Under the pieces are notes generated by a model. That model was not told the DNA's origin. It was given only the letters and a program-made list of their open reading frames with translations, and ran no database searches. Both the position numbers and the translations under genes were made by a program. DNA of 64,000 bases from Haloterrigena sp. KLK7 (GTDB lineage Archaea; Halobacteriota; Halobacteria; Halobacteriales; Natrialbaceae), in contig NZ_CP149787.1 in assembly GCF_037914945.1 (NCBI RefSeq), forward strand, positions 558,001-622,000, in the 5' to 3' direction. This document shows, one piece after another, positions 2,141 to 30,584 of this stretch (position 1 is its first letter; every line of letters begins with the position of its first letter).

Positions 2141-2320
2141 TTCACTCACGTTCGGTCGCTGGCCCCACTCGGATTTCCATCGGTACCGATATTCCACTAG
2201 TTCGCTTCTTCCGGAACGGAAACTCGAAACTACGGTGCCGATCGTAAATACCTTTGGTAGAGTTCCACAGCCACGGAAGTTTCCGCCGCAACCTATCGCT
2301 CCATCGGTCCCAATGGGCGC

Positions 2321-3556
2321 ATGGACTACGCCGACTCCGATCGCGCACGGGAGCTCGCCGACCGCGCCAACGAATTGATGGAGGAGGTCGTCCTCCCGCT
2401 CGAGCGGGAGCGAGCCGGCGGCATGGCCGTCTCGAGCGGGACGATCGCGGACCTCCGGGAAGTCGCCCGCGAGTACGACATCTACGCGCCCCAGATCGCC
2501 GCGGAGTACGGCGGCATGGGAGAGGACTTCCGCGACGTCTTGCCCGTCTTCGAGGAGGCCGGCCGTAGCCTGCTCGGTGCCGCAGCGATGCGCGTCGACG
2601 CTCCCGACGAGGGAAACATGCACCTGCTCGAACTGGCTGGTGACGAATTACAGAAAGAGACCTACCTCGAGCCGCTCGTCGAGGGCGATATCAAGTCCGG
2701 ATTCTCGATGACCGAGCCACTACAGGGGGCCGGCTCGGACCCGAAGATGATCCAGACGACCGCGGAGAAGGACGGCGACGAGTGGATCATCGACGGCCAC
2801 AAGTGGTGGACGTCCAACGGCGTCGCGGCCGACGTCCTGATCGTCCTCGCGCGCACCGATCCCGACGCCCATCCCTACGAGGGCTGTTCGCTCTTCCTCG
2901 TTCCCGCCGACGCGGACGGCGTCGACGTCGTCCGCGACGTTCCCCACATGGGCGGTGGCACTCGCGGCGCCTCTCACGCCGAGATCGTCTACCAGAACGT
3001 CCGCGTCCCCGAAGAGCACCTGCTCGGCGACCTGAACGAGGGCTTTGCTCACGCTCAGGCGCGACTCGGTCCGGCCCGTCTGACCCACTGCATGCGCTTT
3101 TCCGGGATGGCCCGGCGCGCCCTCGAGATCGCGAAGGCGTACCTCGACGAGCGCGAGGGCTTCGGCTCGACCCTGTCTGACAAACAGTCGCTTCGCCACC
3201 GGATCGCCGACGCGGAGACGCGCCTCCACGTCGCCCGCACCGCGATCCGCGACGCGGCCGACCGGATCGACGCCGGCGACGAGGCCCGCGTCCCCGTCTC
3301 GATGTGCAAGGTCTTCGCCGCGAACGTCACGCAGGACGCCGTCGACCTCGCGGTCCAGTGCTGTGGCGCCAACGGGATCGGGAAGGACCTCCCGCTGGCG
3401 GACTTTTACGAGGCCGTCCGGAAGTTCCGCATTGTCGACGGCGCCGACGAGGTCCACCGCCGCGTCATCGCCCGCGACGCCTTCGCGGACGTGAATCGCG
3501 AGGAACTCGAGCCCCTGACCCGCTTCGGTGAGCCGAACACGCGCGGCGGTCAGTAA
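2321..3556 (+). CDS. Acyl-CoA dehydrogenase family protein, ACAD10/11-like
   Basis: 411 residues with the acyl-CoA dehydrogenase fold: an N-terminal helical domain, the middle beta domain (GFSMTEPLQGAGSDPKMI; DEWIIDGHKWWTSNG) and a C-terminal helical domain. These FAD enzymes introduce a 2,3-double bond into acyl-CoA esters and pass electrons to ETF. The position of the usual catalytic Glu (YEGTSE-type motif in the other family members of this window) reads IVDGADEVHRR, with Asp near residue 373. That pattern is typical of the ACAD10/11 branch, whose members handle unusual, for example 4-hydroxylated, acyl-CoAs. A phosphotransferase partner common to that branch is not visible here. The SDR gene just upstream may act in the same pathway (inference). 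Confidence 0.85.
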   Translation: MDYADSDRARELADRANELMEEVVLPLERERAGGMAVSSGTIADLREVAREYDIYAPQIAAEYGGMGEDFRDVLPVFEEAGRSLLGAAAMRVDAPDEGNMHLLELAGDELQKETYLEPLVEGDIKSGFSMTEPLQGAGSDPKMIQTTAEKDGDEWIIDGHKWWTSNGVAADVLIVLARTDPDAHPYEGCSLFLVPADADGVDVVRDVPHMGGGTRGASHAEIVYQNVRVPEEHLLGDLNEGFAHAQARLGPARLTHCMRFSGMARRALEIAKAYLDEREGFGSTLSDKQSLRHRIADAETRLHVARTAIRDAADRIDAGDEARVPVSMCKVFAANVTQDAVDLAVQCCGANGIGKDLPLADFYEAVRKFRIVDGADEVHRRVIARDAFADVNREELEPLTRFGEPNTRGGQ

Positions 3557-5139: not shown

Positions 5140-5955
5140 ATGAGCGATTCTACCAGAGACGACTCCGTTCGCCGCGTCTATTCTCCCGGCGCCGATCACG
5201 ACTTTCCGGACGAGAAACTGAATCGCGTCCTCGAGTTCATCACCGACGACGAGGAGATCCAGACCTACCTCGAGGCCCAGAACGTCAATGCCGTCGATCG
5301 GATGCGGTACAACGACCACGGTGCGAAACACATCGAGATCGTCCGCAACCGCGCGCTGTGTCTCTACGACCTGCTCAAGGCCGGTGGGGTCGACTTCAAC
5401 GGCGCCCGCCAGCAGGACCTCGAGGAAGCCGACGAAGCGGTCATCATCGCGCTCGCGGCGACGCTCCACGACGTCGGCCACGTCGTCCACCGCGACCAGC
5501 ACGCCTACTACTCGATCCCGCTGGCCGCCGACATCTTGGACCGGATCCTCCCCGAGTTCTACGACGTCGCCGAGACCGTCCGCATGAAGGGCGAGGTCCT
5601 CCACGCCATCCTCTGTCACCACCGCTCGGAGACGCCGCTGACGACCGAAGCGGGCGTCATCCGCGTCGCCGACGCGCTGGACATGGAACGGGGTCGCTCG
5701 CGGATCCCCTACGAACACGGCGGCCGCGGGATCAACACCCTCTCGAGTCAGGCGATCAACAGCGTCTCCCTCCAGGAGGGCGAGGACAGCCCCGTCATGG
5801 TCGAGATCGCCATGACCAACGCCGCCGGCGTCTACCAGGTCGACAACCTGCTCAAGGCGAAACTCGAGGGCTCGGGCCTCGAGGAAGAGATTCGCATCGT
5901 CGCCGTCAACACCAACGAGAACCGGGATCAGTTGGTCGAGCGGATCGAGCTCTAA
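5140..5955 (+). CDS. HD domain-containing phosphohydrolase
   Basis: 271 residues. The metal ligands of the HD superfamily are all in place: His64 (NDHGAKH), His110-Asp111 (TLHDVGH) and Asp178 (VADALD). The protein should hydrolyse a phosphoester, probably a nucleotide, but no substrate can be assigned from sequence. The acidic character and length match haloarchaeal HD proteins. A TATA-like CTTTTTTAG at about 5110 lies 25-30 bases before the ATG, so the mRNA is probably leaderless. The stop codon is immediately followed by the first copy of the structured repeat (5956-6147), which is on the same strand and would form the 3' UTR of this transcript. Confidence 0.88.
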   Translation: MSDSTRDDSVRRVYSPGADHDFPDEKLNRVLEFITDDEEIQTYLEAQNVNAVDRMRYNDHGAKHIEIVRNRALCLYDLLKAGGVDFNGARQQDLEEADEAVIIALAATLHDVGHVVHRDQHAYYSIPLAADILDRILPEFYDVAETVRMKGEVLHAILCHHRSETPLTTEAGVIRVADALDMERGRSRIPYEHGGRGINTLSSQAINSVSLQEGEDSPVMVEIAMTNAAGVYQVDNLLKAKLEGSGLEEEIRIVAVNTNENRDQLVERIEL

Positions 5956-6147
5956 AAACAACCTTTTGCTCTGCGTGCGGTCGCGAAGCGACCGCACTCG
6001 GCAAAACGTTGATGAAAAGCACCGGAAGACGCTTCGCGTCTTCCGAGCCCTCGTTCGCTTCGCTCACTCGCGGTGAGTATCAGGTGATGGCCTGCCCTCC
6101 CCCGGGTCGCGGGTTCGCCGAAAATTACGGCGAACCCGCTCCCGGCC
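5956..6147 (+). repeat. Structured dispersed repeat, copy A (3'-UTR position)
   Basis: The element begins at the stop codon of the HD gene with TTTTGCTCTGCG and contains three strong hairpins: 5975-5997 (10-bp stem, GAA loop), 6024-6044 (9-bp stem, TTC loop) and 6111-6137 (10-bp stem, 7-base loop). The last sits inside a further CCGGG/CCCGG pairing. Between hairpins lie short blocks (CTCGGCAAAA, GATGAAAAGCACCGGAAGAC, CGCGGTGAGTATCAG, GGCCTGCCC) that recur in copy B at 28977-29432, read on the minus strand. The stems themselves differ between copies but remain paired. It has no credible reading frame. It could be a 3'-UTR regulatory RNA, a processed small RNA or a palindromic mobile sequence. 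No named family is recognised. Confidence 0.8.
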
Positions 6148-6181: not shown

Positions 6182-6406
6182 TCAGGCCAGTCGAAACCCG
6201 GAGTCGGTCCGCTCGAGGAAGCCCCGATTCCGGAGCGTACTGGTGATCGAGAGGATCGTTCCCTTCTGGACGCAGAGATCGTCGCAGAGGCGTTCGGCCG
6301 TCGCGGTACCGCTCGCAGCGACGTAGAGATAGACCAGTTTCGCTTGCGCGGAGTCCAAGCCCGCCGGTATCGACACGTCGATCCCCTGTGGTGACTGTGA
6401 CGCCAT
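6182..6406 (-). CDS. Small winged-helix transcriptional regulator (TrmB/MarR-like)
   Basis: A 74-residue protein starting MASQSPQGID. Residues 17-72 form one winged helix: AKLVYLYVAASGTATAERLC (helices 1-2), a recognition helix around KGTILSITSTLRNRG, and the wing FLERTDSGFRLA. There is no ligand-binding domain, so it probably works as a dimeric DNA-binding protein only. The frame continues upstream to 6598, but that extension is unlike a regulator, and the ATG at 6406 is about 25 bases from a TTTATT element. A perfect 11-base inverted repeat (6421-6462) brackets that element, which suggests autoregulation. The target genes are unknown. Confidence 0.8.
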   Translation of the reverse strand: MASQSPQGIDVSIPAGLDSAQAKLVYLYVAASGTATAERLCDDLCVQKGTILSITSTLRNRGFLERTDSGFRLA

Positions 6407-28976: not shown

Positions 28977-29432
28977 ATGGCCGGGAGCGTGCTCGGCGAA
29001 ACTCGCCGAGCACGCGACCCGGGGAAGGGCAGGTGCTTCACTGACAATCACCGCGAGCGAACGGATGCGCGGCGCTTCGCGCCGCGGAAAGACGAGCGGC
29101 GCAAGCCGCGAGTCAGTGAGCGAGCGGGCCGACGACCGATGTGATCGAACGACTGAAAGGAGTGAGAGAACGGAAGGAGGAGTGTCTTCGTGAGCAGCGC
29201 GGAACCGTAGGTCCCGCGAGCCGTTCACGCGGCATCGCCGCGTGAAGACGCAGCGAACGAAGGCTCGGAAGTCGCAGCCTGCGAACGAAGTGAGCAGGAA
29301 CGTCTTCCGTTGCTTTTAATCGAATTTTTGCCGAGGGCCAGCTTCGCTGGCCCGTGGTTCGAAAGGCGCTCCGCGCCTTTCGTCATCACGAGAGAGCGAA
29401 GCTCTCTCGAACGACAGAGCAAAACTTCGTTC
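28977..29432 (-). repeat. Structured dispersed repeat, copy B (long form, 3'-UTR position)
   Basis: On the minus strand it begins at the stop codon of the acyl-CoA dehydrogenase and runs away from it. Hairpins, nearly all with GAA/TTC- or ATC-type 3-base loops, lie at 29389-29409, 29360-29382, 29335-29353, 29225-29245, about 29199-29219, 29068-29086 and 28989-29013 (11-bp stem). Shared with copy A: TTTTGCTCTG next to the stop, CGGCAAAAAT/AAAAGCAACGGAAGACG, the CACCGCGAGYGA block, GGGCAGG and the GGCCGGGAGCG...CGCGACCCGGGG frame around the terminal hairpin. It is about 2.4 times longer than copy A, with extra hairpins inserted. No credible reading frame is seen. Nature and family are unknown. 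Confidence 0.8.
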
Positions 29433-30584
29433 TTAGAGCCCGTCGCTGAGCAGCTCCCGCGCGATCACGTTCTTCTGAATCTCGCTCGTGCCCTCGTAGA
29501 TCTGGGTGATCTTGGAGTCGCGGTAGAAGCGCTCGACGGGGAAGTCGTTGACGTAGCCCGAACCGCCGTGGATCTGGACGGCCTCGTTGGCGACGTCGAC
29601 GGCGATGCGGGAGGCGTACTCCTTGGCCATCGAGGCGCCCATGGTGATGTCGTTGTCCTGATCGACGTTCCAGGCGGCCTTGTAGGTCAGGTTCCGCGCG
29701 GCCTCGGTCTTGGTCGCCATGTCGGCGAGCTTGTGCTGGATGGCCTGGAACTCGCTGATGGGCTGGCCGAACTGCTCGCGGTCCTGGGCGTACTCGAGGG
29801 CGGCCCGGAGCGCGCCCTTCGCGATGCCGACCCCCTGCGCGGCGACGCCGGTCCGGGTGGCGTCGAAGAACTGCATCTGCTGGAGGAAGGCGGCGCCCTG
29901 ATCGCCGATGAGGTTCTCCTCGGGGACGCGGACGTCGTCGAGGATGAGTTCGGCGGTGTCGGAGGCGCGGATACCGAGTTTGCCGGTGATCTTCTCGGAT
30001 TCGAAGCCGTCGCGGTCGGCCTCGACGACGATCTGACTGAAGCCGTCGTACCGGCCCTCGGCGTCGGGGTCGGTCTTACAGAGCATGACGAAGAAGTCGC
30101 CGACGGTGCCGTTGGTGATCCACATCTTGTTGCCGTTGATCACCCACTCGTCGCCGTCCTTCTCGGCGCGCGTCGAGACCGAGGAGACGTCCGAACCGGT
30201 GTCCGGTTCCGAGATGGCGGCTCCGGAGATCTTCTCGCCCCGCGCGACGGGCTCGAGGAAGCGCTCCTTCTGGTCTTCGTCGCCGAACTCCCGGATGGCC
30301 TCGGTCCCGAACGAACACGCGAGGATCGAGAGCGCGATGCCGGGGTCGTAGGAGAACAGCTCCTCGGCGATGATCGCCGACTCGAGCGTCGAGTAGCCGG
30401 CGCCGCCGTACTCGATCGGGATCGAGGCGCCGACCAGCCCCATCTCGGCGGCCTCGTCGACGATGTCGTGGGGGAACTTCTCCTCGGTGTCGTACTCCTC
30501 GGCGTGGGGAACGATTTCGTTCTCCGCGAACCGCGCGACTTCGTCGCGAATCTGTTCCTGTTCTTCTGAGAGCCCGAATTCCAT
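29433..30584 (-). CDS. Acyl-CoA dehydrogenase
   Basis: 383 residues, normal length. The N-terminal [20 protein letters not shown], the middle domain with [12 protein letters not shown] and [11 protein letters not shown], and the C-terminal [19 protein letters not shown] with the catalytic Glu of the short/medium-chain type are all present. It is a FAD enzyme of fatty or branched-chain acyl-CoA oxidation that passes electrons to ETF. The ATG at 30584 is preferred to one five codons upstream. A TTTATC element about 26 bases before it suggests a leaderless mRNA. It is divergent from the hydroxyacyl-CoA dehydrogenase/enoyl-CoA hydratase gene (116-base shared promoter region), so the two probably act in the same beta-oxidation pathway. 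Its 3' end carries repeat copy B. Confidence 0.95.

Follow-up and report, generated by a model that had tools for sequence, protein, structure and literature searches.

A family of compound palindromic repeats in haloarchaea sits directly behind the stop codons of unrelated genes, at addresses that are kept across genera while the copy occupying each of them is repeatedly replaced. Two copies lie in the window, the whole 64,000-nucleotide stretch of the Haloterrigena sp. KLK7 genome that was analysed. The reading we favor, which we regard as evenly poised between right and wrong, is that of a REP-like haloarchaeal palindrome with a left anchor at a (C)TA motif, which spreads and is exchanged at the DNA level and may serve as a portable T-tract terminator or 3'-end element.

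As the preliminary description had it, both window copies start at the stop codon of unrelated genes: the letters are exact, and Pfam agrees in placing an HD domain (PF01966) in one host and an acyl-CoA dehydrogenase in the other. The HD-domain gene ends ...CTC TAA (5950-5955, +), followed by AAACAACC and then by TTTTGCTCTG at 5964-5973 (+); the acyl-CoA dehydrogenase gene ends ...CTC TAA (stop 29435-29433, -), followed by GAACGAAG and then by TTTTGCTCTG at 29424-29415 (-). Exactly two matches to TTTTGCTCTG exist in the window, namely these two copies, where 0 are expected. The similarity runs outward in the sense of the gene, as had also been claimed, and extends well beyond those letters, as far as 6147 in copy 1 and 28979 in copy 2, with BLAST pieces linking the copies at E values of 3e-13, 9e-7, and 1e-4.

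Both copies, sitting directly 3' of their host genes, follow one shared compound plan (Table 1). Module A is a long hairpin with a foot of the CGAA/TTCG type, a C.C or G.A mismatch, and a TTTTNC/GNAAAA stem, enclosing an asymmetric loop, TCTGC/TCG, and then one or several inner hairpins. Module B is an unpaired GATGAAAAGCACTCCTCC, module C is built around TCGTCGGCCCGCTCGCTC...GCTCGCGG, and module D takes the form CCTGCCCTCCCCCGGGTCGC-palindrome-CTCCCGGCC; by comparison of copies, module C of copy 1 is without the conserved TCGTCGGCC core. Small hairpin modules, for example GACCTCGC-stem-GCTCAG, are nested in or just after module A in both orientations (window 29414-29340, -; loci L129, L130, L174, and L235), as if small repeats were inserting into the palindrome. 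The small convergent gene beyond copy 1 recurs at orthologous loci. Rfam recognized only a tRNA in the window and, over the elements, gave weak chance matches, none above the gathering score.

Table 1. Positions of the two element copies, their parts and neighbouring genes in the window, and loci of a second repeat family.
Feature	Position	Strand	Basis or remark
HD-domain protein gene	5140..5955, own stop TAA 5953-5955	+	gene caller, PF01966
Element copy 1, ~190 nt	5956..6147	+	left junction to right-hand palindrome end
Module A, copy 1	5959..6011	+	covariance model R1
Module A outer stem, copy 1, CAAC/GTTG	5959-5962 with 6008-6011	+	
Module A mismatch, copy 1, C.C	5963/6007	+	
Module A stem, copy 1, TTTTGC/GCAAAA	5964-5969 with 6001-6006	+	
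Module A internal loop, copy 1, TCTGC/TCG	5970-5974 / 5998-6000	+	
Module A inner stem, copy 1	5975-5984 with 5988-5997	+	loop GAA
Module B, copy 1, conserved unpaired GATGAAAAGCAC	6011..6022	+	alignment; other haloarchaeal families
Module C, copy 1, CTCGTTCGCTTCGCTCACTCGCGGTGA-type segment	6044..6077	+	comparison of copies
Module D, copy 1, CCTGCCCTCCCCCGGGTCGC-palindrome-CTCCCGGCC	6091..6147	+	right-hand palindrome
Convergent small gene	6182..6406	-	stop ~35 nt past copy 1
Acyl-CoA dehydrogenase gene	29433..30584, own stop TAA 29435-29433	-	gene caller, Pfam, orthologues
Element copy 2, ~450 nt	28979..29432	-	extra nested hairpins
Arms, copy 2, left TTTTGC, right GCAAAA	29424-29419, 29331-29326	-	
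Module D, copy 2	29033-28979	-	
Second repeat family, L015, L017, L019, L026, L027	G000:C1 2718063, 925821, 3822200, 652673, 1924787		
Second repeat family, L089 region	2200-2500		

The tie to gene 3' ends in the sense of the gene, first proposed from the window alone, holds when further copies are tabulated for distance and orientation. When genes are predicted with a basic caller that relies on codon usage, the start of 70 of 89 copies falls 0-6 nt past the stop of a gene read in the same sense. Placing copies at random between genes, in random orientation, would put 1.2% there (P about 1e-116, counted over copies); those found at stops belong to 22 separate groups of genes. In an independent named sample, 36 of 57 copies are no more than 20 nt from a same-sense stop (32 no more than 5 nt), and in two or more other haloarchaeal families 9 of 11 are at stops, all TAR. 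Random distances and orientations are thus not what the main family displays, while a divergent-promoter minority and a free subfamily are not linked to stops. The former comprises about 12 copies (about 13%), which start 39-55 nt upstream of the start codon of a divergent gene, lie just outside its promoter, and are without CTA. The right end of the element is placed less strictly: in most cases a convergent stop lies 9-69 nt away or a co-directional start follows after 59-80 nt. In converging gene pairs each gene may own a module A (for instance L035, L080, L110, and L118).

Searches with R1, a covariance model built on modules A and B, yield about 25 loci in the genome of the window, 22-30 matches per genome in the other members of the genus that were searched, and smaller numbers in the rest of the family; matches occur in 86 of 194 sampled Halobacteria genomes, other families included. 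When 84,980 prokaryote genomes were scanned for an exact pattern, 63 stretches came back, from Haloterrigena, Natrinema, Natronorubrum, Natrialba, Halovivax, and similar genera, which we take to be one family, Natrialbaceae. No match appeared in phage records or viral contigs, a plasmid search gave two short matches, and we found no description of the family in the open-licence literature.

Across genera, the element follows the same genes: uL16, gyrB, a TbsP-like regulator, the HD gene, and a small Lrp-type gene, with further hosts including DP2 polymerase, thermosome, aIF-1A, and TFS. The occupants are less faithful than the addresses. Between genomes of the genus, identity is 93.5% over orthologous gene ends and 85% over the elements, and 88 of 126 comparisons show an element matched at least as well by a non-orthologous copy in the other genome as by its orthologue. 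Presence varies inside genera at the HD locus, where genome G009 has the element and G051 and G069 do not, and G023 and G076 have it and G061 does not; the spacers flanking such presence and absence are too diverged for a clean insertion to be read. In several genera an element stands between gyrB and a downstream co-directional gene, gyrA-like by position, apparently inside an operon (L102, L103, L111, L112, L126, and L044). A wider reading, possible and held only tentatively, would see class-wide archaeal exchangeable 3'-end cassettes with fixed stop addresses, swapped without a recognizable transposase and acting as bidirectional terminators.

The two arms of the module A hairpin covary strongly. 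Among 106 distinct copies, 98.3% of cells are paired compared with 79.7% after shuffling, 319 cells are changed on both sides compared with 76, and the covariation score is 0.392 compared with 0.084. Several stem positions use all four Watson-Crick pairs, and among 2018 cells G.T (9) and A.C (12) are equally rare. So few G-U intermediates in a covarying stem are not what selection on RNA typically produces, and arm complementarity therefore looks to be kept at the DNA level. Rewriting of arms has also left direct traces: at L166 the right arm is now a perfect copy of the left, and at L333 and L050 the left arm is now a copy of the right; the outer-stem TTTT/AAAA is the only long, essentially invariant stretch. 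In many copies the inner hairpin keeps the same stem with a loop of either TTC or GAA (for example L031 versus L039), and TGC/GCA also occurs, which suggests frequent loop inversion.

These same data bear on the main rival, doubtful in our judgment, in which a host-evolved, structured 3' UTR acts in RNA, its hairpin within 15 nt of the stop slowing the terminating ribosome or protecting the mRNA 3' end, as reported for Escherichia coli REPs. The start of the hairpin 0-6 nt past the stop, the many housekeeping hosts (uL16, gyrB, DP2 polymerase, thermosome, aIF-1A, and TFS), and the positions kept across genera are all consistent with such a role, for which Escherichia coli offers a precedent: there, a hairpin at most 15 nt from the stop can affect the terminating ribosome (PMC12306157). 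The scarcity of G-U intermediates argues against selection in RNA, as do the swapping of occupants between addresses and the existence of a free subfamily away from stops.

That free subfamily is apparently mobile. Near-identical copies stand at unrelated sites in genome G005, another lies on contig C2 of the genome of the window, and most of the 19 copies classed as 'other' in the named sample belong here. At one G005 copy, a clean empty site could not be read in the other five genomes of the genus, whose orthologous interval holds unlike DNA, of ~840-850 bp where measured. Free copies share the left flank ACTAY-RNN-TG, and 16 of 23 have CTA within 16 nt to the left against a background of 8.8% (P 1.7e-12); CTA, being common to free and stop-linked copies, suggests a landing site or recognized tag. 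Two module A-B units may also stand in tandem, ~90 nt apart, in this subfamily (L301 2613-2774 and L307 1313-1477, Natrinema limicola).

Such copies invite the reading, unlikely in our view, of a mobile miniature element of the PATE or IS200-IS605 type that aims at CTA-type targets and has no host role, stops being struck since TA is rare inside GC-rich genes. It is in keeping with the CTA left of both kinds of copy, the near-identical copies in G005, palindromes near both ends with no evident terminal repeats, and the PATEs known from Haloquadratum, as described in part in PMC3119063. Against it, random intergenic placement puts only 1.2% of copies at stops, the same gene retains the structure in different genera, and CTA is absent from the divergent-promoter class. 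Nor do Y1 transposases (PF01797) lend themselves as the mobilizer, a candidacy the searches do not support: none occurs in G001-G003, each with over 20 copies of the element, and none of 30 Y1 loci examined carries the element by model search.

The preliminary description had further proposed that the element brings its own stop codon, and here comparison with orthologues lacking the element speaks the other way, these having the same last residue and usually TAA or TAG. The HD gene is present in all 61 sampled family genomes; at the roughly 50 loci read, 10 of which have the element, its protein ends VERIEL* with or without it, so CTC is a leucine codon and the stop is the HD gene's own. Acyl-CoA dehydrogenase orthologues that lack the element also terminate in TAA, in almost every case as TTC TAA. 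Since element-free orthologues keep the same last residue, the CTCTAA match of the two hosts is a coincidence. At four loci, element-free orthologues have TAA or TAG in 50 of 63 cases (a hand count including a few loci with decayed remnants), and within gene groups stop type is independent of element type (p = 1.0), on which ground a stop codon travelling with the element body is rejected. Because orthologues keep residue and TAR and stop type is so independent, the element, judged by these sequences, does not carry the stop codon of its host.

Occupied stops are biased all the same. TGA accounts for 3 of 72, compared with 127 of 213 (60%) in the background, and C precedes TAR at 50 of 69 occupied stops compared with 14 of 86, although copies share phylogeny and are not independent, so the P values for this bias are too strong. 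About 28% of occupied TAR stops have no preceding C. The immediate junction takes two common forms, TA-ACGAAC and TA-GAACCGAAC. Where no element follows, genes of this clade whose last codon ends in C as a rule use TGA, and those whose last codon ends in G use TAA or TAG; CTAG and CTAA are seldom seen at stops other than those with the element. CTAR enrichment alone was judged insufficient to cause the placement at stops, because stops make up little of the intergenic space. That the element overwrites the host stop with its own, as first proposed and as in GTAG REPs, whose tag often supplies a TAG stop (Di Nocera et al. 2013, PMC3733652), would suit TAR at 69 of 72 occupied stops against a 40% background and TGA in some element-free orthologues at the TbsP-like and HD loci, but it is largely refuted, and very improbable, given TAR in 50/63 element-free orthologues, TAA in all such dehydrogenase orthologues, and the p of 1.0 within genes.

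In the favored reading of a REP-like palindrome, the left end is anchored at a (C)TA motif, which at most addresses is the TA of the gene's own TAA or TAG; we envisage landing or recognition at CTA-type sites. The family would spread by DNA-level insertion plus conversion between copies, and template switching may keep the arms complementary. Copies would be retained at 3' ends for their T tract on both strands and their hairpins, making each a candidate portable, roughly bidirectional terminator or mRNA 3'-end element. The sense strand does have TTTT shortly past the stop, the antisense strand has TTTT within modules A and B, and the near-invariance of the TTTT/AAAA part of the stem fits a T-tract role. 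After the stops of element-free genes of the clade, TTTT exceeds AAAA by 52:15, and T stretches terminate transcription in Haloferax (PMC7237163); a candidate terminator role is plausible on both counts, and the element probably marks or ends transcripts. Weighing against this explanation are the Y1 searches, which found no mobilizing enzyme, the ~12 divergent-promoter copies without CTA together with the ~28% of TAR stops without C, and the element between gyrB and a co-directional gene, which is awkward for a strong terminator.

The closest known kinds are bacterial REPs and haloarchaeal PATEs. REPs tagged GTAG or CGTC are extragenic palindromes, mostly at most 20 nt from gene 3' ends, between convergent or co-directional genes, with an unpaired tag at one end (PMC3733652, PMC12306157); about half of those in E. 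coli lie within 15 nt of a stop, according to one study as cited in RepRanger 2025 (PMC12306157). The haloarchaeal element is likewise extragenic and next to gene 3' ends, and it behaves like a REP while standing apart from REPs in size, tag, and transposase. REPs measure 20-40 bp, whereas the element is compound, of about 190-450 nt, with palindrome A alone exceeding 50 nt; its left motif is CTAR/CTAY rather than GTAG or CGTC; and the RAYT/Y1 gene, often flanked by repeats in the GTAG type, has no linked counterpart here. REPs also reach high copy numbers, compared with about 25 copies of the element, and, unlike theirs, its addresses are conserved across genera.

PATEs of Haloquadratum walsbyi, as outlined by Dyall-Smith et al. 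(2011, PMC3119063), are transposase-free, with near-terminal palindromes, a conserved short terminal oligonucleotide, and other small repeats inserted inside the palindromes; their definition rests on strain-specific insertion, without target duplication, and on a likeness to IS605-type ends. No IS605-type end with the palindrome of the element was found at the 30 Y1 loci examined. Having modules A and D at its two ends, no terminal inverted repeats, and a length of 190-450 nt, too short for a transposase, the element shares the anatomical part of that definition; the PATE traits set out in those parts of PMC3119063 do not include its registration with stop codons. T-stretch terminators of Haloferax volcanii resemble it in placing a T tract shortly after the gene (PMC7237163), but they are single motifs, whereas the element belongs to a repeated family of compound palindromes. 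A further hairpin-rich family of repeats, GGCAACGGGGAG...CCCTCCCCAGCCGATTCGCTC...GGAAGACGCTTCGCGTCTTCC...GCGCGCCACCG, is more abundant, with many matches in each genome of the genus (Table 1).

The family offers a warning for comparative work: strong covariation does not by itself imply a functional RNA, since it can also arise at the level of DNA. It would represent an archaeal counterpart of bacterial REPs, with the same stop-codon habit and another left motif, apparently without the REP transposase. Fixed addresses with swapped occupants provide a system for asking whether the host tolerates such repeats as parasites, has them as terminators, or both, a question that is testable in genetically tractable haloarchaea.
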